A stretch of DNA of 64,000 nucleotides, taken from a virus. The position numbers and the translations under genes were made by a program. Below, piece by piece: positions 489 through 42,054 of this stretch (the first letter of the stretch is position 1; each line of letters starts with the position of its first letter). Location of the stretch: IMG/VR virus record IMGVR_UViG_3300029319_000012, positions 1 through 64,000 of that record; one strand, given 5' to 3'. Under the pieces are notes generated by a model that saw only the letters and a list, made by a program, of their open reading frames with translations, was not told the origin of the DNA and made no database searches.

Positions 489-3400
489 ATGCGCATATCT
501 GATCAAGAACTTCAAAAAATTGTTTTAAAAGAATTTAAAAAGCTGACCTTAGTCGAGCAAAAACAACTTGACCCACAAATTGGTCAGGCAGCGGAGGATA
601 CCTTACAGTCTCTTGACAAATTAGCAGATGATCTTGAGCGCGCCTTGCAGGACCGGCTTGAATCAGAAGAAGTTATTGACTTTGTTGAGGGCTTTGAATT
701 AGTTTTAAGACTTGCTACAACAATTCCTAGATATCTCTCTAACTTTGTCCTTGGATTGTTAAAAGATTTAGGCGTTCCCGTAGTTGATGATATTCACGAT
801 GTTGCAAATGATCTAGCAAACGGTCTCATTGCCGATAAGCTTCTTATAAGAAAACTTTTAAAAAGCATTGAGTGTGTTATTTTATACGCTCAATACAAAT
901 ATGTTCTTTCTACCGGAGATCTTAAAAGAATTGCTGAAATCGCTGCGCAATTTCAACAAGCAACAGACAAGACTGACGCAATAGAACAAATGAAAAGATT
1001 AATTAATAGCAAAAGAAGAAGCGGTCTTAGAACAGCCTTCAATCGATTTGTCGTTAATCGGATGGGACCTTTTACTGTAAGGGAAGGCAAGTACGCGGTG
1101 GCGATTTCGATTACGAGTCGATATGCTCTTGGAATTAATGACTCAATGCTAGCAAGATTGGTTTCAATCTTTAACAGAGCGCGCGGCAGAGGAATAGCAA
1201 ATATTTCTTTGGCACAAACACAAAAGATCAGAAGTATTGTACAGCCGGGTCAAGGAGGCAAACTTGAAGAAATATTTGACATACTAGAAGAAATAGATGA
1301 AAGAGCCTACAAAACACGCGGACTGGCGACAGGACAGCGCATAGGTATAAAAGACATTAAAGATAAAGCCGAGTCTATAAAAAAAGAATTAGGAGATCCC
1401 AGATCTGATACCAGAGAAGCATCACTTCTAGACGACATAATTGGATCTGAAAATTTAGATGACGTGAAAAGAAATGTGCAAAAATACTCATTCCGAAATG
1501 CCAAGATCGTAAAGCGCATTAGTTTAAATGCGCCAGCTTACAATGCTGACAGCATATTACCGCCATTAACTCCAACACAGTCACCGCTAGAACAATATAA
1601 ATTTATTATAGTTGAAATACCACCAGAGCAGGGTGGCGCTGGCAAAAGAGTTGTTCTTCGTGTTACCGATTTTCGACAATCCGAAGCACTTGGTGTGGTT
1701 GGTGGTGCTTATTATGATGGCGCTCACTATAAATTGATGGATATGGATAATGTTGAACTTAGCAATCAATTAGAAAGATATATAGCAGAGAGAGCTAATG
1801 TGAGTGAGATAGACGCATCAAGCGTGAGAGAATTAAATGAAAGGTTTATAAACAACAGAACAATTGAAAAAGTTAATTTTTCAAGTGATTTTACATTTTC
1901 TCAAGAAGCAATAGATCAATTATACCTCAGCGTGACAGACAGGTTTGACCCTAACATTCAAGAAGTCATCATTGATGTAGAAAGCATAAAACAAGGAAGG
2001 CTTAATATAGCTGCAGATCAAGTTTTAAATTTAACAGATGAAAGAAGAGCTTTATTTAGTATGTTAAACTATGAATTTGCAGCTGCTGGCGCCATGGACC
2101 CTAGTTTTGAGCCAGAAAGGCAGTATTTTGGTTTTAATTTTGACCCTGAATCTGAAAATATTATAATAAACGATAGAAAACAAAGAATGCTTGATTTAGC
2201 CTTAGAGGAGCCTCGAAGGTCCGGACAAGGTAGAGAGAGGTTAAGCGCACAAGAACGGCAAAGGCGCGCACAAGAACGGCAAAGGCGCCAACAAGAAAAT
2301 AAAAATATTAAAGAGATAAACAAACAAATTGATGAACTTGTCAATGATAATAGGACGTCAAAAGACTCAACGTTTCTCGCGCGCGGATCTTCCAGAGAAG
2401 CGATATCATTTAAATTTGGTGATCTAAACGATCTAGCCATACAGTTGGAGCGCGTCAGCGAGGTTGATTCTGTTCACATGGATGAAGCAGGACGAGCTAT
2501 ATTTAATTTAGATTTTATTGATGAAACTGTGCGCGCCGCGATACCTGGAACAATTAAGCCAGGCAGTATAGCTAGCCTCATTGAGCTTAAGCGAGCTATA
2601 CTCAACATTAGAATTCTTCTTGATAAAGATGTAAAATTGTATAAAAAAGCTTTAGAAGATTTTCTTAGCAAAAACAAAGCTAAAGAACCTCCAGACCCAG
2701 CTAAAGTTGAAAAATTCATGAATAAGCAAGGTCTTCGCATGAATCCGCTAATTCAACAGATGGTATGCATGGAAATTTTAATAGAGCAGATAGATGAAGT
2801 TCAACTTAATGAAAAATTTGCAGTAAATATAGATAAAATGGTCGACAGGCTTAGATCAGCCTTAGAAACCTCTGAAATACAACGTGCGCTAGACGCCACC
2901 GAAGAAGGCCAGCGTCTTAGGATTGAGTTAGAAAGGAATTTTGAAAAACTAAAACAAGCAAGAGGTCCTAGGCAAGCTATGGACGCGCAGGTTAGCATAT
3001 TAAACTCAGTGATCAACAAGTCTAAAGTCTTGGCAGGAACAACTACTTTGCTGGTAGGAAAAGCACTGTTGATAAGTTTTGACGCCATAGCAATTGCTAG
3101 CGTACCATTTACTGCGTATGATGCATATACAACTCCAGGCACTCAAGGTGGAACGCTCGCCGCCGTCGGCGCCGGAATCATTTCAGCTGGCGCTCTTGCA
3201 ATCCCCTTTGCTCTTTATAAAGCAGCTGCAGTGGTAGGCGTCCCAGCTGGTATCGCTGTTGGCGGGACATTTATTGTTGGTGCTGTACTTGAGTTTATGG
3301 CTGAGAGCTATTTTTATAAAACGGGCTTAACTGGTAGAATTTCGCCTGAATCTTTCAACTGCAAATTTACAAAAACTCTTATGACTAGCGATGCAGGTGA

Positions 3401-4925
3401 AAAGCGCAAAATTAAATTAAGTAACGGAGAAGAAATAGAAGTTATTCAAGGTGCAGCGGCGCCAACTTGTTATGGCTTTATGAAAACTAGATCGCTCAGC
3501 GAAGCTGAGACTGAGCAAAAGTTGCAACAAAGCGATCTCGGCGAGCCTTTAGATTTTTATGTTTCAAGAGACTCTATGGGCAAAGTTGAATATGGTCAAG
3601 AAATTTTAAATCCTATACATCGTTTTATTTATAAAAGAATTAACCAAACATTGTATGAAGAAAATTTAAACCAAGAATATAAGGATGTATGGGAAGATTT
3701 TGATTTTCGAGTAATAGTTCAGCCTAATGATAGAGTTTCTTGGAAGAAAATGCTTTACTTTGATGAGCAAACAACTGATTTTGTAGCAAACGAAACCTGG
3801 CCAGGTTTATTTTATAATCATGTGTTTCAGCAGGGTGAGGAAAATAAACAGCCAATTATACGTAGAAAATCAACCTTGCTTTTACCAGGTAATCGCATTG
3901 GATGGCTAGACGCTGATGGCAATGGCTTTTTAGAATTAAATCCAAAAAGTGATTTTGTTATACAACTTAATACATTGTTGCAAAGAAGAGTTCAGCTAAA
4001 TAGTATGCGTACATTTAAAAATCCCTTTGTGGGATCAGCTACAGAAATTGCAAATAAATCTCAGGCTTTGATTAATCTTATGCAAGAGAAACAAGAAACG
4101 CTTGTAAAGAGTCTCATCGACCATTTTGAAGGACCAATTGCAAGAAGCGCAGAAGCTGGCTATTTACAAGCTTTGAAAGAACCCGTTCTTCTTCTTGGGG
4201 TGTCGGCAAAATATGTTTTTACAGAACTATACATGCGACAGGAATTACTAAAAGACTTAGATAAAATAAAAATTGATATACTATCAAACAATCAAGGCAT
4301 TGAAAAAGCTACAGATGAAAAATTAGATTTAATATTTGAAAGAGATTTAATTTTTACACACTGGTTAGGGTCTGGCGGGCGTGATAAATTAGGTGAAGGC
4401 GAAAAATCTTTAATGAAAGGCTATCTTAATGCATTGAAAAAAGTTGCAGATAAAATTTCTAGTTCGCAAGCAGGCGCAGTGACAGCAACAGGCGAGCCTT
4501 TTAAACAAGGTTCAGATGTTCAAGATGCCGTGACATCTGAATTAATTATCAGCGGGCTTCCTGATCTTCAAAATGCTTTAAGTGCGATTGTCAATGTATG
4601 GAATAACAAAATTTCTGTTAGGTCTAAAGGATCTAGCTATCTTGACGTTATAAGGCGAATACAAACGATGCTAACAAATAAGGGAGTGAAAATAAAACAG
4701 CAAAAGATAGCAAAAGATTTACTAATAGCTAAATTAAAAAGCACTAGCTTAATGATCCCAGATGAAGAGTTTATTGATATCATCAGAAGGCAACAATCCG
4801 AGCGCGGCGTTGAAAAAGCTAGGCGGGATGCTGATGTAAGACTGCAACAGAAGCGCGGTCCACGAAATCCAAAGGATGTATCGCCCATGGGCGCGGAAGC
4901 CGGCGGTGGTCCTCCTATACAATAA
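489..4925 (+). CDS. Giant protein (1478 aa) with packaging-tag-like N terminus and hydrophobic centre; probable virion or ejected protein
   Basis: I do not recognise the family. The first 16 residues, MRISDQELQKIVLKEF, line up with MKITKSQLKQIIKEEI at 24519 and MKITERELKQVIKEEI at 24742, so it probably shares their targeting tag. The protein is mostly charged and helical, with a low-complexity Arg/Gln stretch near residues 585-600 encoded by a 21-bp duplication. A strongly hydrophobic region of Ala, Gly, Val and Ile at about 848-937 could form two or three membrane segments. The C terminus is basic and then Gly/Pro rich. The start is ATG 489 with AGAGG upstream. Size, tag and hydrophobic centre suggest an internal head protein that enters or spans the host membrane on ejection; that is inference. 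Confidence 0.6.
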   Translation: MRISDQELQKIVLKEFKKLTLVEQKQLDPQIGQAAEDTLQSLDKLADDLERALQDRLESEEVIDFVEGFELVLRLATTIPRYLSNFVLGLLKDLGVPVVDDIHDVANDLANGLIADKLLIRKLLKSIECVILYAQYKYVLSTGDLKRIAEIAAQFQQATDKTDAIEQMKRLINSKRRSGLRTAFNRFVVNRMGPFTVREGKYAVAISITSRYALGINDSMLARLVSIFNRARGRGIANISLAQTQKIRSIVQPGQGGKLEEIFDILEEIDERAYKTRGLATGQRIGIKDIKDKAESIKKELGDPRSDTREASLLDDIIGSENLDDVKRNVQKYSFRNAKIVKRISLNAPAYNADSILPPLTPTQSPLEQYKFIIVEIPPEQGGAGKRVVLRVTDFRQSEALGVVGGAYYDGAHYKLMDMDNVELSNQLERYIAERANVSEIDASSVRELNERFINNRTIEKVNFSSDFTFSQEAIDQLYLSVTDRFDPNIQEVIIDVESIKQGRLNIAADQVLNLTDERRALFSMLNYEFAAAGAMDPSFEPERQYFGFNFDPESENIIINDRKQRMLDLALEEPRRSGQGRERLSAQERQRRAQERQRRQQENKNIKEINKQIDELVNDNRTSKDSTFLARGSSREAISFKFGDLNDLAIQLERVSEVDSVHMDEAGRAIFNLDFIDETVRAAIPGTIKPGSIASLIELKRAILNIRILLDKDVKLYKKALEDFLSKNKAKEPPDPAKVEKFMNKQGLRMNPLIQQMVCMEILIEQIDEVQLNEKFAVNIDKMVDRLRSALETSEIQRALDATEEGQRLRIELERNFEKLKQARGPRQAMDAQVSILNSVINKSKVLAGTTTLLVGKALLISFDAIAIASVPFTAYDAYTTPGTQGGTLAAVGAGIISAGALAIPFALYKAAAVVGVPAGIAVGGTFIVGAVLEFMAESYFYKTGLTGRISPESFNCKFTKTLMTSDAGEKRKIKLSNGEEIEVIQGAAAPTCYGFMKTRSLSEAETEQKLQQSDLGEPLDFYVSRDSMGKVEYGQEILNPIHRFIYKRINQTLYEENLNQEYKDVWEDFDFRVIVQPNDRVSWKKMLYFDEQTTDFVANETWPGLFYNHVFQQGEENKQPIIRRKSTLLLPGNRIGWLDADGNGFLELNPKSDFVIQLNTLLQRRVQLNSMRTFKNPFVGSATEIANKSQALINLMQEKQETLVKSLIDHFEGPIARSAEAGYLQALKEPVLLLGVSAKYVFTELYMRQELLKDLDKIKIDILSNNQGIEKATDEKLDLIFERDLIFTHWLGSGGRDKLGEGEKSLMKGYLNALKKVADKISSSQAGAVTATGEPFKQGSDVQDAVTSELIISGLPDLQNALSAIVNVWNNKISVRSKGSSYLDVIRRIQTMLTNKGVKIKQQKIAKDLLIAKLKSTSLMIPDEEFIDIIRRQQSERGVEKARRDADVRLQQKRGPRNPKDVSPMGAEAGGGPPIQ
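2247..2288 (+). repeat. 21-bp exact tandem duplication inside the 1478-aa gene
   Basis: Two adjacent copies of a 21-base unit beginning gcacaagaacggc encode AQERQRR twice. Both copies are identical at every base, so the duplication is recent or kept by slippage. It keeps the reading frame. Confidence 0.85.
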
Positions 4926-8397: not shown

Positions 8398-9714
8398 ATG
8401 AAAAAATTATTTGAAAACTGGCGTAATTTTATCAATGAGCAAGACCTTACTCAAACTACGGAGGCGCCTAGAGACGGCGAATTAGTTCCCTTTCGAATCC
8501 GTGGCAAGAAAAAATCTTATAAAATTTTTAAATCCAATATTGATGATAGTGATGATGATCTACGAGTCTTTCCAATAGTAGCAAAAGGAGAAGCTCCCGA
8601 TGGTGGAGACATATATTTTAGAAATAAAAAAGAGGAAGAAGCGTGGTTTAAGTCAGGCGAAGTTATTCTAGCTGATCCTGATAATAAACAATTTAAGATT
8701 ACAAATGTTGAAACTAGATTGAGCGCAAAAAAATTCGTTGAAATATATGAAAAGACTCAAGAAGAACTAAAGTCACCTAAGGGATCTTTTGTTGAGATGC
8801 CTGGAGTTATATCTTGCTTAGATGGAAATTGCTATGAAAAAATGCTAACTTTAGGACATGTTAGTATGAAAAAGAAAGATCTTTTAAGAAAAATCAATGA
8901 TCTTCCAAAGTATAAATTGAGATCTAGAGCCAGAAAAAGTACAAAATTAATTGTATTGCACATATCCGAAACAAGCCATCCCCGAGGAACGCTCGGCGCG
9001 TTAACAGGAAAAAAAGCAAGCACAAACTACGAAGTTACCGAAGATGGAATCATATATGAATATGTTAGCCCTTATTCAGCTACAAATCATGGCGCGCCAG
9101 TAAACAATATCTCAATAGGTGTTGATTTTACTGGCAGGAGAAACAAGATTGGTGATAGTAGAACAGAGTTTTATAATTATGCAGGTTATGGTGCTAGAGA
9201 TCAAGAACCATTTAGTGCGGATCAAACCGCGCAAGGTGTTGCTTTAGTGTCAAAACTATGCGAAATGTTTGGCTTGCCACAAATAGTAGCTCCATATGAT
9301 TTTCGTATAATTCTTGTTAAATGTATAAAACAGCTATTAAAAGATTTTGGCGCCAGCCTCGAATTAAGAAAATCATTTGCTGCAGAAGGAATTAAAAAAA
9401 GTATAGAACACCATAACTACTTTAAAGTCTCTGATATACTTGAGCAAATGAATATTGGTATAGTACCTCACAAGGTAATTAATCCTGGACATGGCTGCCC
9501 AGGTCCTGGTTTTCCTTATAGCAAGTTTGGTAATGTTGCCGATGAAGACTATATTTTAAATGAGCTGAGAAGCATTATTGAAAACAAATATGAAAATGAT
9601 ATAGCTAAATTAATGAGTGACTTCACAGACAGAACACAAGTTGCAATGGTGTATAGAAGAAATAAACAAGCTAAAAAGCTAGCTGCAGCTAACAAGCAAG
9701 GTAAAACAAAATGA
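8398..9714 (+). CDS. N-acetylmuramoyl-L-alanine amidase (Amidase_2), 438 aa
   Basis: The central and C-terminal part (about residues 178-370) matches Amidase_2, zinc enzymes that cut the bond between MurNAc and L-Ala in peptidoglycan. Likely zinc ligands are His in IVLHISE (about 188), His in ATNHGAP (about 230) and His in GHGCPGPGFP (about 364); the last resembles the usual H-x-x-C/D-P-G-F motif. The N-terminal 170 residues form an unrecognised domain. The first residues, MKKLFENWRNFINEQ, resemble a short amphipathic N terminus also seen at 9711, which may be a head- or virion-targeting tag. It overlaps the Nudix gene by ATGA. Either a lysin or a virion-borne entry enzyme; the tag favours the latter, but weakly. 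Confidence 0.8.
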   Translation: MKKLFENWRNFINEQDLTQTTEAPRDGELVPFRIRGKKKSYKIFKSNIDDSDDDLRVFPIVAKGEAPDGGDIYFRNKKEEEAWFKSGEVILADPDNKQFKITNVETRLSAKKFVEIYEKTQEELKSPKGSFVEMPGVISCLDGNCYEKMLTLGHVSMKKKDLLRKINDLPKYKLRSRARKSTKLIVLHISETSHPRGTLGALTGKKASTNYEVTEDGIIYEYVSPYSATNHGAPVNNISIGVDFTGRRNKIGDSRTEFYNYAGYGARDQEPFSADQTAQGVALVSKLCEMFGLPQIVAPYDFRIILVKCIKQLLKDFGASLELRKSFAAEGIKKSIEHHNYFKVSDILEQMNIGIVPHKVINPGHGCPGPGFPYSKFGNVADEDYILNELRSIIENKYENDIAKLMSDFTDRTQVAMVYRRNKQAKKLAAANKQGKTK

Positions 9715-11270
9715 ATCCAATTATAGAAAAATGGAAACAATTTCTAAAAGAACAAGAAGAACAAGAGCCAGCACCAGTTTTAGATTTATCTAAAGAACTT
9801 GACTCTGGATTCTGTGATTTTAATCCTCTGATTAATCAATACGCTCAGTCGAGCCCAGATGGACTTGCAGAGATGCTTATATTTGTTGTAGCTACTCAGC
9901 AAATGCGCTGGTATGATGTTGTGCCCAAGTTTCCTTTGTTAATGCAACATCTTAGAGAAAAAGATATTTTGCTTGATCCTGAAGACGCATTTGTAAATGA
10001 TCAAGGCAAAACAATTTATAATATTCCAAAATCAATTGCGCAACTTACACTTGGACCTCGTAAAAATGCTATTCAATATATGTGGCAAAACAGAGAAAGT
10101 ATTTATTCTACTTTAAGACCAATGTTTGCAACTTATAATAAAGGTGGCGAGGATAGCTTAGCAAAAGAAGAAGCTCTTTTTAATATTTACTTAGAGTTTA
10201 TTAAGCTTCCAGGCTTGGGGCTTCCTAAGGCTGCTTTTGCTGCGCAGCTTATTGTTGGTCGTCTTGGCTGTATTGATTCGATTAACTTAAACTTATATAA
10301 AGGCTTGGACCCTGAGGGGCAGCTTATAACTTATGATAAAACCGGTCGTCCTTCGTTTAAAACTCCAGGCAAAACTAAAAAGACAGGTATCGTACAGATT
10401 ACGAAAGGCGGTGTTAAATTAGCGCAGAAGTATGTGCAATTTTTAAAGCATATCGCAGAAATGACAGGCACCACCGAAGCTAGCGTATCAAAACAGCTTT
10501 GGAACTCGTGGGTTGAGTTGGTCGCTCTTAAAATTAATAAGAAAGATGATATTACAGTTATCATGCCTGGTGGCAAAGAATACACTGTGCCAAATGACTA
10601 TTCTAAAAACATTTCAAAAGCTGATGTTAATCCTTCAGCTGCTTTCCGTAAAAAGTATATTGGTCGGATTACCGGCAAAGATATATCTCGACAGCACGAT
10701 CCAAGAAAGATGTTTGAGGGCGCAAAGAAATGGGACAGCTATGTTAAGGGCTTGATCAACGAAGCTTTGCCATATGGTGGCTATGAACCTGCTGCTATTG
10801 GTGGTGTCTCAAATCAAGGCACAACAATTCAACCACACGATACAAATGTGCAGACAGGAGTGGAGAAAGATACTTCAAAATCAATAAAAGCAGTAATGCA
10901 TCAAAATGGAAAAGTTCTTTTGCTTAAATGCAATGAGGATAAGCGAGGCTGGGATTTGCCAGGCGGTCACATTAAAGAGGATGAGAATCCACTGCAGGCG
11001 CTGCGTAGAGAGGTCTTTGAAGAAACAGGTTTACAGATTATCGACCCTAAAATAATACATGGCTATCAGCATGGTAAAAAAATGTTTGCAGAGGGCGGCT
11101 TTGGAGCCGGCGAGGTTATGCTGAGCAAAGAACACGACAGTCACGCATTCATGTCGATCAAAGAGATTAAAAAACAACGCATATCTGAAGCTTTTTTGAA
11201 GGCTATCGAGTTAGCCTTAGGTGAGAGCGCAGAAACTAGGAAGGTGAAAATTAAGATTAAAATGAGGTAA
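9711..11270 (+). CDS. Protein with C-terminal Nudix hydrolase domain, 519 aa
   Basis: The C-terminal part (about residues 394-510) is a Nudix domain. The Nudix box is complete: Gly-x5-Glu-x7-Arg-Glu-x-x-Glu-Glu-x-Gly, seen as GHIKEDE and then RREVFEETGL at about 418-440. Nudix enzymes hydrolyse nucleoside diphosphates linked to another group, and the Glu residues bind Mg. The N-terminal 350 residues are helical and unrecognised. The N terminus MNPIIEKWKQFLKEQ resembles the start of the amidase just upstream. The gene overlaps that amidase by four bases and is followed after three bases by the second amidase, so it is in a lysis-like operon. Substrate (NADH, ADP-ribose, dNTP, capped RNA) cannot be told from the sequence. 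Confidence 0.75.
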   Translation: MNPIIEKWKQFLKEQEEQEPAPVLDLSKELDSGFCDFNPLINQYAQSSPDGLAEMLIFVVATQQMRWYDVVPKFPLLMQHLREKDILLDPEDAFVNDQGKTIYNIPKSIAQLTLGPRKNAIQYMWQNRESIYSTLRPMFATYNKGGEDSLAKEEALFNIYLEFIKLPGLGLPKAAFAAQLIVGRLGCIDSINLNLYKGLDPEGQLITYDKTGRPSFKTPGKTKKTGIVQITKGGVKLAQKYVQFLKHIAEMTGTTEASVSKQLWNSWVELVALKINKKDDITVIMPGGKEYTVPNDYSKNISKADVNPSAAFRKKYIGRITGKDISRQHDPRKMFEGAKKWDSYVKGLINEALPYGGYEPAAIGGVSNQGTTIQPHDTNVQTGVEKDTSKSIKAVMHQNGKVLLLKCNEDKRGWDLPGGHIKEDENPLQALRREVFEETGLQIIDPKIIHGYQHGKKMFAEGGFGAGEVMLSKEHDSHAFMSIKEIKKQRISEAFLKAIELALGESAETRKVKIKIKMR

Positions 11271-18853: not shown

Positions 18854-21628
18854 ATGGGCGGCGCTGCAGGACATATGGCACATCCATTTGATTGCCGCGA
18901 GGTAAGAAATGGTCAGGATTTAATTAATTTTTATGTAAAAACGGTTAATGCTATACCTCTTTACGAAGAAGAACCAAAAGAAAGCTCTGTTTCTGTTAAA
19001 TTAGACGGTGTTAATGCATCTTTTCGTCTTCAGAAGGCAAATAATCCTGCCGGTTTTATGTTTGTGATAGACAGAGGTGGAAAAACACCTGGAGCACGTA
19101 CAAAATATGATTTTGAAGGTGTAACTCCAGATAATGTGGTAAAAAGATTTGGAGGCAATAAAGATCATGGCATGGTTCAGGTTGTTAACCACATGTCAAA
19201 GATTCTAAATCATAATTTGATGGAATTAAAACCATATGTTGAGGCTTTGGGTATTTTTGAGCGCATGGGTCCTGATGGAGTCTTTTTTGATGCTGAATAT
19301 TATGCAAATGCAGACGATCCAAAAGGTCCAGACGCAGAAAGAGGCTATAAGCCAGTAAAAAACAGTGTTAATTATAATCAAAATTATATTGCCATTCATA
19401 GGCTTTCAGAATTTTATACTGAGACAAAAGAGACAAAAACAGGAAAAACAAGATCAAGGCGCCTTACAAGAGGTTTTTATTGGGAAACAGTTGCAGAAAT
19501 TAATGATCTCCTTAGGCAAAAAGATCAATTATTAGCCCAACGCCAAGACACTGTAGAGATTGACCAACTTATTGCTGCAAAAAACAACGAGCTAAAGGCA
19601 AAGAAGCAAGAACATCAAGAAGTGCTTAATAACCTTGCAAAAGCTATACAAACATATGCGACTGAATTAGACATGCCTTTTAATATATACACGAAGATTG
19701 GTGTTCGCTTTAAAGAGGGTTTGACCAGAGAAATAGTGTTAAAAAGGATTGAGGAGGCTCTCAATATAAGAGTTCCTTACAGCTATAAAAAAGTTAATGA
19801 GCAAATGAGTATTGGACCTGTTAAGATTAATGAACAAACAGGCGAGCTTGAAGGCAGAACTTTAAAAGAACTTCTTTTATCGGTTAAAACAAACCCTGCA
19901 CATGTTGCTTATTATCCAGATACTCCAGGATTTACCAAAGATGGTGAGTCAGTAAAAGGCAAAATACGTACCAAAGATGACTATATAGAAGACCCAAAAC
20001 AAAGCGCGTTTGCTCTTAAGATGTATCAAGATATTATGGTCACGGGGCATGAAACTGGTATTGGTCCATTTGATATAGGGAATAGCCCTCGTGATGCAGA
20101 GGCGATCAACAGTGCAGTCATTCTTTGGCATGCCGTGCGTCATATTGGTAAAGCCTTAAAGAAATCTATTACAACCGATGTAGATTTAGGCGTTGAAGGT
20201 GGAGATGAAAAACATGAAGGAATTGTTATACAATCGACAGAAATATGTGATGGCATTGCATTTAAATTTACTGGAGAATTTATTGTAGATAACAGATCAA
20301 GTGGTTTTGGTGTTGCCCCAAAAGGCAAAGATATACCTTCCGATTCGGCTGAGGCTTTATTTGAAACTAAGTTTAAATATGGTGAACTACTAGAAAGTTT
20401 TACAGTTGATACTCAAATTGTTGCAGAGCAAAAAGAAAGATATGCTATCATGATACCTGGCGGATTTAAGCCACCGACTGGTGGTCATTATAAAATGATT
20501 AAGCATTATGAAAAACAATCAGATGTTGAAAAAGTTTTTGTTGTAACTGGGTACAAATCACGTGGTGGAGTTACTTTGCAGCAAAGCAAACAAATATTTG
20601 AAATATATGGTGGGTTTTCTGATAAGGTTGTTTTTCTTACCAGCCGCGATGCATCAATAACATCATTTGGTGAGTGCTACGAACTAATAAAAGACCCGCA
20701 GTTTGTTGATCAATACTCACATTTAACTTTTTCAATTGGTGCATCCGACAAAGATGACGATGAAAAAAGAATCAGAGGTTTTCAAAGATACTTTGAAAAC
20801 AACAAAGGTCTAACCACAGCTAATATTGACTCATACCCTGCAGCGCCAGCATACGAAGTCAATGGTAAGCCAGCTTCAGCTTCACGCATGAGAAAAGCTT
20901 ATGATGATGGCAACTGGGAAGAGTTCAAGCGGATGCTTCCAGATGATAATTTTTATGATGATGTTGTGCAAGTGCTTAATAAACAAACAAATACAATTGA
21001 GCTTGAGGAGGGCGCTGAAAGCAAAGATTTTTTTACGATGAGCTACCTATTTTCTTTGGTTGACGAAGTTTTGCTTGAGAGAAAAAGCATGAACGACAAA
21101 GTAAGCGATAAAATAAGCTACCTGATGAAAAAAGAGAAAAAACCACAAGATCAGGCGGTTGCAATTGCACTTAGTATGAGAGATCGTGGAGAATTAGCTG
21201 AAAAAGAAGAAAAACAATGCGCGCTTAATGAAGAGGGTAAAGATTGTCCTGTGCACGGTAAAAAAGCATGCCCAACTCAAGAACATATCGCTGTGCAAGA
21301 ATTAGCTGTAAATGAGCAAGAGGAAGAGGTTGATACGGAGACCAGAGTACGACAATTAGCTGCTCCATTAATCGCTAGTCTTGGCTTGCCAGAAGACCAA
21401 TCAGAAAGAGCCTATGACGAACTAGTTAATTCTATAGTAGATCAAGTTACTGCACTTGAGACACAGAAACAAAAAGACCAAGAGGAAGTAGAAGCTAGGT
21501 TGGCAGCTGGGGATACAGCCGGATTAGCACAAGAGGTCTCTGGCGTTGGGTCTATAGCAGGATATTCAGTACCAAAAAAACATAGAAGGGGAAAAAAGCA
21601 TGAGCAAGGAATTATTAGAGGAGCGTAA
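18854..21628 (+). CDS. Fusion of ligase-like nucleotidyltransferase and cytidylyltransferase-like (HxGH) domains, 924 aa
   Basis: Residues 1-490 look like the covalent nucleotidyltransferase fold of RNA and DNA ligases: SVKLDGVNASF at about 46-56 gives the K-x-D-G motif with the likely adenylated Lys48, and HEGIVIQ near 454 and FKFTGEF soon after fit motifs IV and V. Residues 530-720 form a second domain with GGFKPPTGGHYK (about 535-546), a variant HxGH nucleotide-binding loop, and SASRMRKAYDDGNWEEF near 674, as in NMN or phosphopantetheine adenylyltransferases. The tail (740-924) has a helix LVDEVLLERKSM, a cysteine pair region and acidic stretches. ATG 18854 follows AGAGG. It could seal RNA or make or use NAD; which one cannot be read from sequence. 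Confidence 0.7.
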   Translation: MGGAAGHMAHPFDCREVRNGQDLINFYVKTVNAIPLYEEEPKESSVSVKLDGVNASFRLQKANNPAGFMFVIDRGGKTPGARTKYDFEGVTPDNVVKRFGGNKDHGMVQVVNHMSKILNHNLMELKPYVEALGIFERMGPDGVFFDAEYYANADDPKGPDAERGYKPVKNSVNYNQNYIAIHRLSEFYTETKETKTGKTRSRRLTRGFYWETVAEINDLLRQKDQLLAQRQDTVEIDQLIAAKNNELKAKKQEHQEVLNNLAKAIQTYATELDMPFNIYTKIGVRFKEGLTREIVLKRIEEALNIRVPYSYKKVNEQMSIGPVKINEQTGELEGRTLKELLLSVKTNPAHVAYYPDTPGFTKDGESVKGKIRTKDDYIEDPKQSAFALKMYQDIMVTGHETGIGPFDIGNSPRDAEAINSAVILWHAVRHIGKALKKSITTDVDLGVEGGDEKHEGIVIQSTEICDGIAFKFTGEFIVDNRSSGFGVAPKGKDIPSDSAEALFETKFKYGELLESFTVDTQIVAEQKERYAIMIPGGFKPPTGGHYKMIKHYEKQSDVEKVFVVTGYKSRGGVTLQQSKQIFEIYGGFSDKVVFLTSRDASITSFGECYELIKDPQFVDQYSHLTFSIGASDKDDDEKRIRGFQRYFENNKGLTTANIDSYPAAPAYEVNGKPASASRMRKAYDDGNWEEFKRMLPDDNFYDDVVQVLNKQTNTIELEEGAESKDFFTMSYLFSLVDEVLLERKSMNDKVSDKISYLMKKEKKPQDQAVAIALSMRDRGELAEKEEKQCALNEEGKDCPVHGKKACPTQEHIAVQELAVNEQEEEVDTETRVRQLAAPLIASLGLPEDQSERAYDELVNSIVDQVTALETQKQKDQEEVEARLAAGDTAGLAQEVSGVGSIAGYSVPKKHRRGKKHEQGIIRGA

Positions 21629-22457
21629 GCTCAGATCTTTAATTAGAAAAGCAATAAAACTAAGAAAATCGCAACTGACTGAAAACAACTTACTTAAATC
21701 TGATGAAGAAAAGCTAAGGCAAGTTATTAGACGAATGCTAGCTGAGGGTAGTGATATTGATGCAGATACAGAGCCAGCCCCTTACGAATCAACTGCCTTA
21801 TCGGCTCTTGCTGATGCATTTAACCAAATATTACCCGTTTTAAAAACTGGTTTGCGAAAATTAAGAAAACCAGAAGAAAGACGTTCATATAGAGCACACA
21901 TCTTGCAAAAGTTTAAATCAATGTTTGATAATTTTGAAGGATTGGATGCTCAACAAGCGATGGGTGAAGGTGACTTGACAGAACAAGAAAAAGACGTCAA
22001 AATTAAAATTGACAATCGTCCCGATGACGCAATGATTGTTCCAGATATTGAGAAAGAACGCTTTAAGCCTGAAGAAGAGCCAGAGCTTGAGCCTGATGAT
22101 GCTGATGTTGATCAACTAGCTATCTCTACTGAAGACCCTACCGGAGCTAGGTTTGCTTTTAGCACAATCAACAATTCAAACATTGAAAAACTGCTTGGTG
22201 ACAAGAGAAAGCTTCTGCCCTCTGATGAGTACAGAGAAGAGTATAAAAACTATGCTTTATATAACGTTGATCTTTGGCTTTTAACTTACGAAAAGGAATT
22301 AGCAGACGAGCTTGGTACAGAGCCGGCATTTACTGATGTTGTAACTCCTAAGCCAGAGGGCGCACAGGTTTCAGCCAGAGCAGCTGCTCAGGATACTCCT
22401 GATTTGCCTGATATTGACGATATAGAAATTCCAGAGCCAGAACAACAGGCTGTCTAA
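21600..22457 (+). CDS. Tag-bearing charged protein, 285 aa
   Basis: The gene starts inside the end of the ligase fusion gene, at ATG 21600 after AGGGG. The N-terminal 60 residues hold two amphipathic segments (LLEERKLRSLIRKAIKL and EEKLRQVIRRMLAEG) that resemble the shared L-x-x-I-I-x-E-E tag. A helical region follows (ALADAFNQILPVL to about 120), then a long acidic stretch with VKIKIDNRPDDAMIVP, and an acidic Pro-rich tail. I do not recognise the family. Position next to basic tagged proteins suggests a head-associated or scaffold-like role, which is inference. Confidence 0.55.
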   Translation: MSKELLEERKLRSLIRKAIKLRKSQLTENNLLKSDEEKLRQVIRRMLAEGSDIDADTEPAPYESTALSALADAFNQILPVLKTGLRKLRKPEERRSYRAHILQKFKSMFDNFEGLDAQQAMGEGDLTEQEKDVKIKIDNRPDDAMIVPDIEKERFKPEEEPELEPDDADVDQLAISTEDPTGARFAFSTINNSNIEKLLGDKRKLLPSDEYREEYKNYALYNVDLWLLTYEKELADELGTEPAFTDVVTPKPEGAQVSARAAAQDTPDLPDIDDIEIPEPEQQAV

Positions 22458-22819
22458 TGTGGGAAAGTAAAAGAAGTAGGTTTAAAAGACCAGACCGTGA
22501 TTTCTATAGTATTTCTAATAAATTAAAATCTCAAAATAAGATTAATGAAAATTTTGAGATTATGCTGTCTTCTTTAACCTTGGAAGAGATTATCGCACTC
22601 AGGCTTGAGTTAGCTGCTAAGGTAGTTAATTTTAAGCTATATGGGCTAAATCTTTGGCAAAACTTACCAGAATTAGTTAAAGATGCAGTGCTTAAGTATG
22701 TCTACTCAGCTGCGAGAACAAAAGGCGAGATGGCTGCTTTTTTAGGATTAGATCGATCAACATTAAAAAAGCTCTTAAAAAAACATAATACGTCTAGTTA
22801 TTTTGACAAAAGCCAGTAA
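22457..22819 (+). CDS. Putative DNA-binding protein with helix-turn-helix, 120 aa
   Basis: TAATG links the start at 22457 to the stop of the gene before. The last third (AARTKGEMAAFLGLDRSTLKKLLKKH split over two helices) resembles the helix-turn-helix of Fis-like or NtrC-tail proteins, where the second helix would enter the DNA groove. The first 30 residues are basic. I am fairly sure of the fold but not of a family. It may regulate transcription in the infected cell, or coat DNA as its neighbours may do. Confidence 0.55.
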   Translation: MWESKRSRFKRPDRDFYSISNKLKSQNKINENFEIMLSSLTLEEIIALRLELAAKVVNFKLYGLNLWQNLPELVKDAVLKYVYSAARTKGEMAAFLGLDRSTLKKLLKKHNTSSYFDKSQ

Positions 22820-22850
22820 ATATTATTGAGTTAGTTAGTTGGCTTTTTAA

Positions 22851-22857
22851 CTATTTA
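22851..22857 (+). promoter_or_regulatory. Recurrent CTATTTA box ahead of the basic-protein gene
   Basis: AaCTATTTA lies 10 bases before ATG 22868 and four before ATG 22862. No clear ribosome-binding site fits between, unlike at 466 or 16353. Confidence 0.3.
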
Positions 22858-22867
22858 AAGTATGACC

Positions 22868-23467
22868 ATGCAAATAACAAAAGAAATTCTGCAAGAGCTT
22901 ATTAAGGAGGAGGTTGATAACTCCTTAGAAGAAAAACGCAAGCGAAGTAGAAAAAGAACTAAGAAGCGTAAAAAGTCAAAAGTTAAAAAACGTAAGTCTT
23001 CAAAAGTTAAAAAACGTAAGTCTTCAAAAGTTAAAAAACGTAAGTCTTCTGGCAAAAAAGATGCATGTTATTACAAAGTTAAATCCAGGTATAGCGTTTG
23101 GCCATCTGCATATGCTTCTGGTGCCCTTGTTAGATGTCGAAAAGTAGGCGCTAAGAACTGGGGTAATAAATCAAAGAAAAACGAAAATTTGCAAGAAGAG
23201 CTAGTGTCGTCTGAAATTCAAGCACTACATAGCAAAATGAAAGATCGCTATGAAGAGCTTAAAGCAAAAAAAGAAAAAAGTCGAGAAGAAGAGCGCAATG
23301 AGCTTAGAATGAAAAAAGCCTTAGATGATCCTGGCTTAAAGCAAGCATTGGCTGACGATAGAAAAAGACAAAGCTTGCTGGACTTGTTTAATTTCAATCT
23401 TGACGAAATCATCTCAGAAGTGATTGATGAAGTGTTGGCTGAAAAAAAAAATCTAAAGAACGGCTAA
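22868..23467 (+). CDS. Tagged, extremely basic protein with SKVKKRKS repeats (first part of a likely frameshifted gene)
   Basis: Start chosen at ATG 22868 (in frame with ATG 22862) because MQITKEILQELIKEEV then aligns with the shared tag. Next come Lys/Arg runs including three SKVKKRKS repeats (about residues 37-60), a short cysteine domain (DACYYKVKSRY, PSAYASGALVRCRKVG at about 65-95) that I recall from other marine phages, and a charged coiled region. The zero frame stops at 23465 just after ten A. The -1 frame continues at once with conserved sequence to 23802, so the true product may be a roughly 310-residue protein. Likely a nucleic-acid-binding virion or internal head protein (inference). 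Confidence 0.65.
   Translation: MQITKEILQELIKEEVDNSLEEKRKRSRKRTKKRKKSKVKKRKSSKVKKRKSSKVKKRKSSGKKDACYYKVKSRYSVWPSAYASGALVRCRKVGAKNWGNKSKKNENLQEELVSSEIQALHSKMKDRYEELKAKKEKSREEERNELRMKKALDDPGLKQALADDRKRQSLLDLFNFNLDEIISEVIDEVLAEKKNLKNG
22976..23047 (+). repeat. Three exact 24-bp tandem copies
   Basis: The unit tcaaaagttaaaaaacgtaa plus gtct occurs three times in a row without a mismatch and encodes SKVKKRKS each time. The lack of drift suggests recent slippage. The basic repeats resemble histone-tail-like DNA-binding segments. Confidence 0.95.
23443..23449 (+). other. Candidate -1 frameshift site A AAA AAA within ten A
   Basis: The zero frame reads GCT GAA AAA AAA AAT and stops 13 bases after the A run, at 23465. 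In the -1 frame a TGA at 23440-23442 bounds the open region, so a shift must occur in the A run itself. Past it the -1 frame reads KSKERLKNLSEDPK into the 23491 protein. The heptamer is the classic slippery form. Slippage of RNA polymerase on ten A would give the same product. Confidence 0.6.
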
Positions 23468-23490
23468 AGAATCTTTCTGAGGATCCAAAA

Positions 23491-23802
23491 GTGGGCACAG
23501 GCAAGAAGCCAAAAGGCTCTGGTCGTCGTTTATATACAGATGAAGATCCTAGTGATACTGTAAGTGTAAAATTTACATCAGCGAGTGCTGTGCAAGATAC
23601 TCTTGCAAAAAAGTCTTTTAAATCAAAGTCTCACAAAAGACAATCACAAATTATAAATCTAATTAAACAAAGAGCTTGTGTTGCAGCAGGACGAGCTAAA
23701 GATCCAGAAAAAAAGAAAAAATTAAGATCGGCATGTGAATATGCAAAAAAACGAGCTGAAGCTTCAAAACGCAAAACTAAAAGAATGAGAAAAAAGAAAT
23801 GA
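23491..23802 (+). CDS. Basic protein, 103 aa; probably the -1 frame part of the gene at 22868
   Basis: Counting from GTG 23491 the product starts MGTGKKPKGSGRRLYTDED, but the same frame is open back to 23443 and that upstream part (SKERLKNLSEDPK) looks like natural protein sequence. No ribosome-binding site precedes the GTG; GAGGA at 23479 is poorly spaced. The protein has a VKFTSASAVQDTL segment, a helical part IINLIKQRACVAAGRAKD and a very basic tail ending in Lys/Arg. I recall this domain from other marine phages, often in longer proteins that include the cysteine domain found upstream. Its stop overlaps the next gene by ATGA. Confidence 0.65.
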   Translation: MGTGKKPKGSGRRLYTDEDPSDTVSVKFTSASAVQDTLAKKSFKSKSHKRQSQIINLIKQRACVAAGRAKDPEKKKKLRSACEYAKKRAEASKRKTKRMRKKK

Positions 23803-24326
23803 TTACGCTTGATGAATTTATAGAAATTGTTCGCGAAGAGTTGGATGGTGTGTTATCCGAAAAATGTGAAAAAGGCTATAAAACTCATCCAAAGCGCAAA
23901 ACTAAAATTATGTTTGGTCAACGATATAGAAATTGTGTTAAAGCCGAACACCGGCAAATTGATTTAACAGAAGAAGAACTAGAAGAAATAAGACAGCTGC
24001 TTGAATCTGATAAAGATCTTGAAGAGAGCCTTAAAGATTGGTTTGAAAAGTCTAGAGGGACAACTAAATCAGGAAAAAAAGTAGGAGGCTGGGTTCAAGT
24101 TGGTGGTAAGTATGATGGTGCACCCTGTGCAAAGCAACCAGGGCAGAAAACAAAACCAAAATGTGTTTCTTCTGCAAAAAGAAGAAGCATGTCAAAGAAA
24201 GAGAGAGAATCAGCTGCTAGAAGAAAAAGAAAAAAGGATTCGAATCCCGATAGAAAAGGCAAGCCGATAAACGTCTCCACTGATCCACAAAGAAAACGAA
24301 AGAAAAAGAAAAAAAAGAAGGGATAG
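23799..24326 (+). CDS. Tagged basic protein with cysteine motif, 175 aa
   Basis: Residues 1-22 (MITLDEFIEIVREELDGV then LSEK) fit the shared amphipathic tag. A first Cys pair lies in KCEKGYK and YRNCVKAEH. The second half has DWFEKSRGT, GGWVQVGGKYDG, APCAKQPGQKTKPKC and then many Arg/Lys, with RKRKKDSNPDRKGK. I remember this second domain as a recurrent small domain in marine phage genomes, of unknown role; the spaced Cys residues could bind a metal. It ends in a run of nine Lys codons and is linked by ATGA to the gene upstream. A DNA-associated internal protein is likely, as inference. Confidence 0.6.
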   Translation: MITLDEFIEIVREELDGVLSEKCEKGYKTHPKRKTKIMFGQRYRNCVKAEHRQIDLTEEELEEIRQLLESDKDLEESLKDWFEKSRGTTKSGKKVGGWVQVGGKYDGAPCAKQPGQKTKPKCVSSAKRRSMSKKERESAARRKRKKDSNPDRKGKPINVSTDPQRKRKKKKKKKG

Positions 24327-24330
24327 CAAA

Positions 24331-24519
24331 ATGTGCCTGATATGTGTTGAGCTAGCAAAAAATACACTAACTTCAATTGAAGCTAAAAGAAATTTTGCTG
24401 AAATGAGATCTCAAATTGACGAGCAGCACCAATCAGAAGTATTACAACGCATACAAATGAAAGAGGACGAAGAAAACATTATTGATGTTTATTTAAGGTA
24501 CGAAGCAGATACAGATTAA
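24331..24519 (+). CDS. Small conserved-looking protein, 62 aa
   Basis: ATG 24331 follows AAGGGA. The product begins MCLICVELAKNTLTSIEA and is helical and acidic in the second half (SEVLQRIQMKEDEENI). A very similar N-terminal Cys-x-x-Cys start is familiar to me from small marine phage proteins, but there is no known function. The stop TAA overlaps the ATG of the next gene (taATGaag). Confidence 0.55.
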   Translation: MCLICVELAKNTLTSIEAKRNFAEMRSQIDEQHQSEVLQRIQMKEDEENIIDVYLRYEADTD

Positions 24520-24740
24520 TGAAGATTACAAAGTCACAATTAAAACAAATAATAAAAGAGGAAATTAGCCTAGTTGATACTGTTGATGATTATCACATGA
24601 TGTTATTGAAAACAGCAGAAAGATATGCAAAATTAGCAGAGGCTTATCCAGATAAAGATTTTATGCTAACTCAAATACGTAATCTGCATGCTATGTTTGC
24701 AAATATGGAAAAAAGATTTTTAACAAACAAAGGGCTTTAA
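24519..24740 (+). CDS. Small tagged protein, 73 aa
   Basis: The first 16 residues, MKITKSQLKQIIKEEI, are the clearest form of the tag shared by several proteins here. The rest is a short helical domain (LLKTAERYAKLAEAYPDKD, then LHAMFANMEKRFL) with no motif I know. The tag and the small size recall the internal proteins of T4, which carry an N-terminal head-targeting peptide that the prohead protease removes after Glu. It is followed by a one-base gap and a second tagged gene. Confidence 0.6.
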   Translation: MKITKSQLKQIIKEEISLVDTVDDYHMMLLKTAERYAKLAEAYPDKDFMLTQIRNLHAMFANMEKRFLTNKGL

Positions 24741-24741
24741 A

Positions 24742-25200
24742 ATGAAAATTACAGAACGAGAACTAAAACAAGTAATAAAAGAAGAAATTGATATTCTCTT
24801 AAAAGAAGAAGACTTGCTTGAGCACCTTCAACATGGAGCTGTTTTAGAAGATGGCACTCCTGTTTGTGAAGCCTGCTTGTTTGAAACTATCTCTCCAGCT
24901 CTTTGTGAATGTCCTGATCTTATACCAGAGGCAAAGTATCGCGGTCGTAAAGTAAAGCTAAACAAAATTATGCGTGGCGATGTCAAGAAATTTAAAGTCT
25001 TTGTTAAAGATCCTAAAACTGGTAAAATTAAAAAAGTTAATTTTGGTCATGGTGGTAAAAGTGCAAAACGCAAAGGTGAAAAAACTATGAGAATTCGTAA
25101 GTCAAACCCTAAAGCACGAAAAAACTTTAGAGCTAGACATAATTGCAAGAATCCAGGTCCAAAAACCAAAGCAAGATACTGGGCATGTAGAACTTGGTAA
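24742..25200 (+). CDS. Tagged basic protein with conserved C-terminal domain, 152 aa
   Basis: Residues 1-16 (MKITERELKQVIKEEI) repeat the tag, and an acidic stretch follows. A cysteine cluster lies at about 39-53 (VCEACLF, LCECPD). The C-terminal 90 residues are basic: KYRGRKVKLNKIMRGDVKKF, then KVNFGHGG, MRIRKSNPKARKNFRARHNC and GPKTKARYWACRTW. I recall this ending from virion proteins of marine T4-like phages, sometimes next to or fused with head proteins. Conserved Cys and His could bind zinc. A structural or DNA-packing role in the head is likely, though not shown. Confidence 0.65.
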   Translation: MKITERELKQVIKEEIDILLKEEDLLEHLQHGAVLEDGTPVCEACLFETISPALCECPDLIPEAKYRGRKVKLNKIMRGDVKKFKVFVKDPKTGKIKKVNFGHGGKSAKRKGEKTMRIRKSNPKARKNFRARHNCKNPGPKTKARYWACRTW

Positions 25201-25201
25201 A

Positions 25202-25615
25202 ATGAAAATTATAATTAAAATTATTAAAAAAATTAAAAATATGGTTTGTCCACCTGCTACGCAGGATGTTGCATTAAATACAAAAAATAGAAATGCTACC
25301 AGAAAGAATCATATGTATGGACCGTTGAATGTAGAAGAGCCCGGTGATTACTGGAAAAAGCTAGCTGAAAAATGGGACACGACTGAAAAAGCAGCAAAGA
25401 AATCGACATGTGGTGTTTGTGTTGCATTTGATATATCTCCTAGAATGAATGAATGTATGCCTGGTCCTGTTTCTGATGCATCTGGTAGACTAGGCTATTG
25501 TTGGATGCATCATTTTAAGTGCCACTCTGCAAGGTCATGTGACACTTGGGCTATGGGTGGACCAATTAAAGATAATAGCAAGTCTTATGATTGGCAACAA
25601 AAAAATAAATTTTAG
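25202..25615 (+). CDS. Cysteine-rich protein resembling high-potential iron-sulfur proteins, 137 aa
   Basis: A short basic lead (MKIIIKIIKKIKN) is followed by CPPATQDVALNT, NHMYGPLNVEEPGDYW and then TCGVCVAFDISPRMNEC, GYCWMHHFKC and SCDTWA. The spacing of C-x-x-C, a later Cys and a Gly-Tyr-Cys-Trp recalls the cluster-binding part of HiPIP-like proteins, which hold a 4Fe-4S centre. I recognise the protein as recurrent in marine phages, always with unknown role. The iron-sulfur idea is inference; a zinc site is the alternative. It follows the tagged gene by one base and is the last of the basic block. Confidence 0.5.
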   Translation: MKIIIKIIKKIKNMVCPPATQDVALNTKNRNATRKNHMYGPLNVEEPGDYWKKLAEKWDTTEKAAKKSTCGVCVAFDISPRMNECMPGPVSDASGRLGYCWMHHFKCHSARSCDTWAMGGPIKDNSKSYDWQQKNKF

Positions 25616-26139: not shown

Positions 26140-26216
26140 TGGCTCGTAGCTCAGATGGTTAGAGCGCGGCTCTTATAAGGTCGTAGTCGTGGGTTCAAAT
26201 CCCACCGAGCCAACCA
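26140..26216 (+). tRNA. tRNA-Ile with anticodon UAU (reads AUA)
   Basis: The 77 bases fold as a full cloverleaf: acceptor TGGCTCG/CGAGCCA, D stem GCTC/GAGC with GG in the loop, anticodon stem CGGCT/GGTCG with two wobble pairs, loop CTTATAA, variable TAGTC and T stem GTGGG/CCCAC with TTCAAAT. The discriminator is A and CCA is encoded at 26214-26216. The anticodon is TAT at 26174-26176. Most bacteria read AUA with a lysidine-modified CAU tRNA, so a UAU tRNA is unusual. It would help read the many AUA codons of this phage. Confidence 0.92.
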
Positions 26217-30838: not shown

Positions 30839-32089
30839 ATGTCTAAAAAAATTAAAGTGTTCGTTATTTCTGATCACCCTTACTCTCCGTCAGGTGTTGG
30901 AACACAAACACGCTACATGGTAGAGAGCTTATTAGCAACTGGTAACTATCAGTTTATTTGTTTCGGCGGCGCCATTAAGCACAATGATTACAAACCTCAA
31001 AAAACTGATAAGTGGGGAGATGACTTGCTTATCTTTCCGGTAGATGGCTATGGAACACAAGATTCAGTTCGATCGATTATAATGACTGAAAAACCAGATA
31101 TGCTCTGGTTCATGACAGATCCTAGATTCTTTCCATGGCTATGGGAAATGGAAGATGAAATTAGGTCTCTGATTCCTATGATTTATTACCATGTATGGGA
31201 TAATTATCCATATCCCATGTATAATAAAGTTTGGTACGACTCAACTGATGTTGTTGCATGTATATCAAAACTAACTCATGATATTGTTTCAACAGTTTCA
31301 CCTGAAGTTGATTCTTTTTATATGCCACATGCAGTAAACACTGAATTCTTTAAGCCTTTATCTGAAGAAGATCGATCTGAACTTAGAAAGAACATGGATA
31401 TACCAGACGACAAGTTTGTTGTGTTTTGGAATAATCGGAATGCAAGAAGAAAGCAGCCTGCTACTTTAATTTTCTTGTTTAAAGAATTTTTAGATAAGGT
31501 TGGGCATGATAAAGCTAAATTAATTATGCATACTGACCCGACAGATATCAACGGACCAAACTTGGTTGCTGTTATTAACAATCTAGGATTAAATCAAGGT
31601 CAAGTACAGTTTTCGACTCAGAAACTAGAATTTCCGCAACTAGCTGCAATCTATAATATTGCAGATGTCACTGTTAATGTTTCAGACGCTGAGGGCTTTG
31701 GGTTGTCGACCCTAGAGTCTTTATGCTGCGGTCGCCCAATTATTGTTAATATGACTGGTGGGTTAAAAGATCAAGTAACTGATGGTGAGAATTGGTATGG
31801 CATTGGTATTGAGCCAAGATCAAAGTCAGTAATTGGCTCGCAAGATATACCATATATCTATGAAGATAGATTTGTTGGGGAAGATTTTGTTGATGCGCTT
31901 ACACAGATGTATAACATGACAAAAGAAGAGCGTCTTGAGTTGGGTGAGAAGTGTCATGAGTTTGCAAATAAAAACTTTAACTTTGAAGACTATTGCACAA
32001 AATGGGATGAGAAGCTGAGAGAAGTACATGCAAAATATGGCTCTTGGGGAGAAAGAGAATATCAATCATGGGAGATGTTAGAGGTTTAA
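30839..32089 (+). CDS. Glycosyltransferase, GT-B fold (GT4-like), 416 aa
   Basis: The N-terminal domain starts with KVFVISDHPYSPSGVGTQTR, as in GT4 enzymes. The C-terminal domain carries VSDAEGFGLSTLESLCCGRP at about 283-302, the acidic E-x7-E sugar-nucleotide motif. GT4 enzymes move sugars from nucleotide donors with retention. It has no membrane segment, so it would act in the cytoplasm. It follows the nuclease by six bases and is first in a thirteen-gene glycan block. Acceptor and donor are unknown. Confidence 0.8.
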   Translation: MSKKIKVFVISDHPYSPSGVGTQTRYMVESLLATGNYQFICFGGAIKHNDYKPQKTDKWGDDLLIFPVDGYGTQDSVRSIIMTEKPDMLWFMTDPRFFPWLWEMEDEIRSLIPMIYYHVWDNYPYPMYNKVWYDSTDVVACISKLTHDIVSTVSPEVDSFYMPHAVNTEFFKPLSEEDRSELRKNMDIPDDKFVVFWNNRNARRKQPATLIFLFKEFLDKVGHDKAKLIMHTDPTDINGPNLVAVINNLGLNQGQVQFSTQKLEFPQLAAIYNIADVTVNVSDAEGFGLSTLESLCCGRPIIVNMTGGLKDQVTDGENWYGIGIEPRSKSVIGSQDIPYIYEDRFVGEDFVDALTQMYNMTKEERLELGEKCHEFANKNFNFEDYCTKWDEKLREVHAKYGSWGEREYQSWEMLEV

Positions 32090-32090
32090 T

Positions 32091-33350: not shown

Positions 33351-33351
33351 A

Positions 33352-38723: not shown

Positions 38724-38725
38724 TT

Positions 38726-40517: not shown

Positions 40518-40572
40518 TAGAAAGTTGCAGGAAATGTTGCCAATTGAAGAATACGATTTAATGGACAAATAA
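40507..40572 (+). CDS. Possible very short frame, 21 aa, after the radical SAM gene
   Basis: ATG 40507 gives MSNNRKLQEMLPIEEYDLMD and ends in Lys before TAA. It overlaps the radical SAM stop but has no ribosome-binding site of its own. It may be the remnant of a longer gene or a leader, as 39 non-coding bases follow before the methyltransferase. Weak. Confidence 0.2.
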   Translation: MSNNRKLQEMLPIEEYDLMDK

Positions 40573-40611
40573 ATTTAGTTGTTATACGAAGGTCATAGAA
40601 CAGGAAAATAA

Positions 40612-42053: not shown

Positions 42054-42054
42054 T

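Follow-up and report, generated by a model that had tools for sequence, protein, structure and literature searches.

The internal proteins of bacteriophage T4 (IPI, IPII, IPIII and Alt) are unrelated, diverse cargo proteins that begin with a short N-terminal peptide containing an L/I-x-E site, after which the prohead protease gp21 cleaves (PMC9026906). In IPIII, residues 4 and 7 of this peptide are needed for targeting, and residues 8 and 10 for processing (PMC9026906). Phage P1 uses an N-terminal signal to send the injected defence protein DarB, and likewise a reporter, to the head; residues 6–10 are implicated and 30 residues are enough (PMC9024508). In phiKZ and SPN3US, ejected head proteins are processed after Glu by a T4-related prohead protease, and 42 head proteins were reported as uncleaved (PMC10052503). 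Here we describe two short N-terminal sequences, tag A and tag B, that recur on otherwise dissimilar proteins of the virus in IMG/VR record IMGVR_UViG_3300029319_000012 (106,405 bp; labeled G000). The window analyzed comprises bases 1–64,000 of that record, and the other G and L numbers are labels of related records and contigs. The two tags very likely form a capsid-targeting system of the T4 type, greatly expanded and served by two interchangeable peptides.

The tagged phages share with T4 a gp21-family protease encoded in the genome and an equal spacing of the key tag residues. They differ from it in having two tags per genome, of 14 rather than 10 residues and without identity to the T4 peptide beyond spacing, and in carrying up to about 26 tagged proteins per genome, with roughly 400 body clusters, in place of four; the tagged clade also swaps its tags and has modules strung together behind a single tag. 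P1 DarB, in contrast, is a single large protein with no multi-gene repeated tag (PMC9024508), and in phiKZ and SPN3US most propeptides exceed 100 residues, with no common short tag described (PMC10052503). Literature searches, whose coverage excluded most subscription journals, found no prior description of the tags.

Results

Two tags at gene starts

Tag A has the consensus MKITKxxLKQIIKEE and starts the proteins encoded at 22868, 24519, 24742 and, further along the record, 94844; the protein at 23799 has it one residue short. Tag B, MKKLFENWxxFLNE, is found on the amidase at 8398 and on the proteins at record positions 93378 and 93941, with a variant on the Nudix protein at 9711. Profiles for both tags were built without the window's genome, and for tag A, 7,779 internal Met codons gave a null distribution with a 99.9th percentile of -14.8. 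In the window's genome, seven gene starts but no internal Met codons score over a threshold of 8 (p = 9e-6), and a threshold of 5 yields four tag-A and four tag-B genes, again with no internal matches. Across ten genomes, 90 tag-A and 41 tag-B matches fall at gene starts, compared with 6 and 1, respectively, at ∼7,800 internal Met codons.

Within the window, tag A occupies residues 1–14/16 of a 73-aa protein (24519..24740, + strand; MKITKSQLKQIIKEEI; profile score 51.8), for which the predicted cut after E14 falls at base 24560. The adjacent 152-aa basic protein (24742..25200, +; MKITERELKQVIKEEI; score 38.6) has a body corresponding to phrog_7595 (E 3.6e-11), and tag A is likewise present on its homologs in L142 and in C5 (the 305-kb contig). 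A 199-aa Lys/Arg-rich protein (22868..23467, +) carries the variant MQITKEILQELIKEEV (score 19.9). Its body, which includes the cyanophage module KKDACY..WPSAYASGALVKCRKVG, has matches in 365 phage records, and its homolog in G001/L009 is tagged as well. The 175-aa basic protein at 23799..24326 (+), M-ITLDEFIEIVREELDG, fits tag A only on deletion of one residue after Met and has, of 1,641 untagged N-termini, the fifth closest to that tag; its body is phrog_727 (E 1.5e-38), and the G001 homolog begins MKITIEEIREMVKQQI. The tag-A gene outside the window, at record position 94844, scores 47.0.

The sequence-only reading had proposed a common N-terminus on small basic proteins, and this holds for these four window proteins, with the one-residue deletion in 23799. 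A 1478-aa protein that it also listed (489..4925, +; MRISDQELQKIVLKEF) is borderline, its Glu being off by one and its score of -12.0 barely over the 99.9% null (about p = 0.001); no homolog was found with which to check it. The 285-aa protein at 21600..22457 (+), put forward as a weak form, has no tag (A score -50.4), and its homologs have untagged starts, one start being unclear. The bodies of 22868 and 23799 contain basic, Cys-containing modules like those of the cyanophage phrog_727 protein (P-SSM2 PSSM2_123), which differs in being a single untagged protein encoded between gp15 and gp16 in the neck/terminase region. Of the DNA-binding role suggested for the window's basic proteins, basic composition alone is seen.

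Tag B opens a 438-aa Amidase_2 protein (8398..9714, +; MKKLFENWRNFINEQ; B score 42.5; PF01510, E 1.2e-8) and, as a variant, a 519-aa protein with a C-terminal Nudix domain (9711..11270, +; MNPIIEKWKQFLKEQ; B score 7.5; PF00293, E 1.9e-13), residues 1–351 of which have a homolog in L075 with a clear tag B, MKFLFESWRMFLEQE. Both had been taken for weak copies of the N-terminus found on the basic proteins, and for members of the same set. Both are indeed tagged, but with the second tag: the amidase has a strong copy of tag B and the Nudix protein a weaker one. The core observation therefore stands as two tags rather than one, with two of the listed members wrong or doubtful. Other window proteins lack a tag that their relatives possess: a module homologous to the 103-aa basic protein at 23491..23802 (+) follows tag B in L374 and L148, homologs of the 137-aa protein at 25202..25615 (+) bear tag B in G024, L142, L374, G001 and L148, and the protein at 16795 has tagged homologs in G031 and G040.

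The tag-A search pattern, MKI-[ST]-x-x-x-L-[KR]-Q-x-I-[KR]-E-E, matched at least 120 stretches in viral contigs, whereas 257 Gb of prokaryote genomes yielded only 2; the tag-B pattern, MKK-L-[LF]-E-N-W-x-x-[FY]-[LIV]-x-E, had 37 matches, of which several lie on contigs also bearing tag A. Both prokaryote matches look like phage DNA in marine metagenome-assembled genomes (MAGs). One, L374, has seven tagged genes within 8 kb, and the other, NHDW01000006.1 (305,838 bases), has 26 tag-A genes, including a run of 19. The latter (L375; L378–L393), filed under a Methylococcaceae MAG (TMED69), also encodes a T4-type portal, an S77 protease and a capsid protein and, with its 26 tag-A genes, looks like a jumbo phage that was misbinned. 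The number of tagged genes per record is 8 for the window's record, 16 for G040, 21 for G031, 23 for G005, 25 for G021 and 26 for the 305-kb contig, and the 626 tagged open reading frames (ORFs) of the related viral records form about 400 body clusters, including 271 singletons. A variant lineage beginning MKITRRQLRR, to which G005 and G021 belong, is seen mostly as fragments; the S77 protease is present in one member of 160 kb, G074, and in the 305-kb contig.

A cut-site motif in both tags

For the cut-site analysis, N-termini were picked on residues 1–11 (tag A) or 1–8 (tag B) alone, and matches to the patterns used for fetching were excluded. Residue 14 is Glu in 198/228 tag-A and 61/80 tag-B sequences, and residue 12 is Ile, Leu or Val in 225/228 and 71/80, respectively. 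Both tags hence carry, at residues 12–14, the [I/L/V]-x-E cut site of T4 gp21. The spacing of the preceding residues also matches the T4 signal. The N-terminus of T4 IPIII and IPII is MKTYQEFIAE in sequence records, and at an offset of four its Y4-F7-I8-E10 corresponds to W8-F/Y11-L12-E14 of tag B and L8-I11-I12-E14 of tag A, such that hydrophobic or aromatic residues lie 3 and 6 positions before the cut Glu (F11 and W8 in tag B, I11 and L8 in tag A, F7 and Y4 in T4). A common propeptide, with LL[KR]E at its end, is found on the major capsid proteins of 11 relatives; in these relatives, LxE occurs near residue 8 of most of the proteases, comparable to the LIE-9 reported for T4 gp21. Together, the capsid propeptide and the protease motif suggest that the L/I-x-E cutting rule is probably valid for this clade.

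Conservation in tag B fades past residue 14, largely stopping there, while tag A has Glu at residue 15 too (313/385) and often another L-x-E near residue 22. The two features of tag A would also fit a longer helix that directs proteins to the prohead and stays uncut, with Glu14 simply a part of it and the L-x-E likeness coincidental. We consider this highly improbable, given the fading of tag B, the I/L-x-E at the identical place in two unlike tags and the LL[KR]E end of the clade's capsid propeptide. A capsid-targeting peptide of the T4 type, cut by a gp21-type protease as the sequence-only reading had proposed, thus gains strong if indirect support from the sequences, and we infer from it the presence of the tagged proteins in the virion, their cleavage and their injection.

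Exchange of tags between proteins

In ten body clusters, which of the two tags is present depends on the phage. A P-loop kinase, for example, bears tag A in L070 and tag B in L123 (64% identity over 210 aa), and a small protein bears tag A in L102 and tag B in L057 (75% identity). Because two unlike peptides replace each other on one body, tags A and B most likely do the same job. Among 116 diverse tagged proteins, the tag alone can be aligned, with K2 and E14 nearly invariant.

Identical tag residues within a genome use the same codon at a frequency of 0.45–0.65, against 0.35–0.49 expected. This is only somewhat above the expectation from codon usage, so it is the peptide that is kept and not the DNA. 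Such an excess could nevertheless be a trace of recombination having spread a stretch of DNA, from promoter through ribosome-binding site to the opening codons, whose encoded peptide is functionless, as could the CTATTTATTAT-like DNA found 11 bases upstream of the start in tag-B genes of the window's genome. Elements of this CTATTTAT/CTACTTAT type precede three tag-B starts by 11 bases (window 8387; record 93367 and 93930), with no Shine-Dalgarno sequence between element and start codon, and another lies at record 104075, upstream of the scaffold-like gene; possibly they are a shared late signal. As a common upstream promoter for all tagged genes the element was rejected, being seen only at the tag-B genes of this genome and not across genomes. 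The low same-codon frequency, which points to a protein kept after synonymous drift, the lack of an upstream motif common across genomes and the A/B swaps, which preserve features of the peptide and not of the DNA, leave very little room for a DNA module with a functionless peptide.

The domains found behind the tags are Nudix, AAA_33, guanylate kinase, GNAT acetyltransferase, RNase_T-type exonuclease, pentapeptide repeats, thioredoxin and nucleotidyltransferase, with weak matches to Pkinase, ART-PolyVal and S-AdoMet lyase; no tail, sheath or terminase protein is among the listed cargo domain matches. One cargo match to a PHROG labeled portal also matches the window's Nudix domain and reflects a Nudix domain in that PHROG. 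Inspection by eye had suggested ADP-ribosyltransferases at G001:93254 and G031:113844, but Pfam did not support them. T4 Alt is known to act early in the host, and by analogy the cargo enzymes would suit early action there.

Homologs of 22868, 23491, 23799 and 25202 are strung behind a single tag B in L148, L142 and G024, which fits a common destination for the window's basic proteins. Strings of small basic modules behind one tag occur in G024 (146356–148323; L313), L148, L142 and L072. The G024 protein has an internal tag A too, and for this reason might be broken up by the head protease.

Prohead protease and head genes

The window's phage is a T4-like myovirus without a close isolate; the closest portal among 50,697 phage records has 44% identity to its own. 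The right end of the record encodes the terminase (record position 96934), the portal (98524) and a gp23-type capsid protein broken off by the contig end. A gp21-family Peptidase_S77 prohead protease, which the sequence-only reading had suggested looking for elsewhere in the genome, is present at record 102244–102864 (domain 102325–102768, E 5.5e-32). It adjoins a 129-aa core-like protein (102866), and a scaffold-like protein is encoded at 104093. A small ORF between the core-like and scaffold-like genes (103259–103492) resembles ribosomal protein bS21; in Microcystis phage Mel-JY01, the matching position holds an annotated RpsU.

The S77 protease is present in 28 of the 41 tagged records that reach 60 kb. 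The same 28 records have a whole portal gene (S77 in 28/28), and one other portal match is broken by a contig end. In control records with a ThyX motif, S77 occurs in 4/22 (p = 2e-4 versus 28/41).

In each of seven genomes, the N-terminal helix of the 129-aa protein beside the protease is among the untagged N-termini closest to tag A. An amphipathic helix, which tag A resembles, could instead dock proteins that are never packaged onto a cytoplasmic phage or host partner (e.g., RNA polymerase or the replication complex), and a few of the cargo domains (exonuclease, guanylate kinase) could work in the cytoplasm. We regard cytoplasmic docking as unlikely: it leaves unexplained the Glu14 with Ile, Leu or Val at residue 12 in both tags, the match to the spacing of the T4 signal and the likeness of tag A to the protein that adjoins the protease.

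The rest of the window contains several other features. A 924-aa protein (18854–21628; N-terminus MGGAAGHM..FD) is kept in relatives and has, by eye, possible ligase-like K-x-DG and nucleotidyltransferase-like GGFKPPTGGHY motifs. A 632-aa probable lipoprotein (5645–7543) has CDG.DNDCDG-type repeats and, again by eye, a possible von Willebrand A-like region. Positions 30839–43765 hold a long run of sugar genes, assigned by eye as glycosyltransferases, an aminotransferase, a radical SAM protein, a probable fucosyltransferase and an epimerase. The tRNA-Ile at 26140–26216 has the anticodon TAT, which is unusual for bacteria, as these normally read AUA by a modified CAT anticodon.

Discussion

In a capsid-targeting model, docking, cleavage, packaging and injection would proceed as follows. 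Late in infection, the tag, probably an amphipathic helix, would dock cargo onto the prohead core; tag A, if it copies a helix of the core protein, could use the same contacts to join the core as it grows. The gp21-type protease would cut after Glu14 to leave the cargo free inside the head, DNA would be packaged around it, and the cargo would enter the next host along with the DNA. As either tag fits almost any protein, the phages could load many different proteins, with host-takeover or counter-defence enzymes likely among them.

Several points weigh against this model. Beyond spacing, the tags show no similarity to the T4 peptide (IPIII scores -22.9 with the tag-B profile and -52.1 with the tag-A profile); T4 IPI itself differs, so such a likeness is not required of capsid-targeting sequences. 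Motifs as short as L-x-E are generally common. The association between protease and tags tracks phage lineage, the tagged phages being related; it is consistent with a link and is not independent evidence for one. Thirteen tagged records of at least 60 kb have no S77 protease, 12 of them having no portal match and the thirteenth a portal cut by the contig end. These look like fragments; no S78-type protease was found in tagged records that lack S77, and no gp23 (PF07068) either, in agreement with fragments. Neither a virion proteome nor an isolate of the tagged clade was found. Mel-JY01, the closest isolate looked at, has no repeated tag in the roughly half of its genome that was read; the first 50 kb of another isolate, immuto_2-6A, served solely as one of the control sequences. 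Searches of phage isolates with the bare tags by tblastn gave no matches, probably because the query is too short, and so do not establish absence from isolates.

A fuller account, which we find plausible but hold tentatively, is that this uncultured, mostly marine T4-like clade has a general means of protein delivery, in which two swappable head-loading tags, spread by recombination, would place dozens of enzymes in each virion, with some cargo strings cut by the head protease and tag A copying a helix of the prohead core. If capsid targeting is correct, the injected proteins of these widespread uncultured phages could be listed from sequence, as the genes that start with tag A or B, and some 400 mostly unannotated clusters would become candidates for host takeover or counter-defence. 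The tags would also be two new signals by which foreign proteins could be packaged in phage heads. The internal-protein scheme, comprising four proteins in T4, would have grown elsewhere into a large and fast-changing set of cargo.

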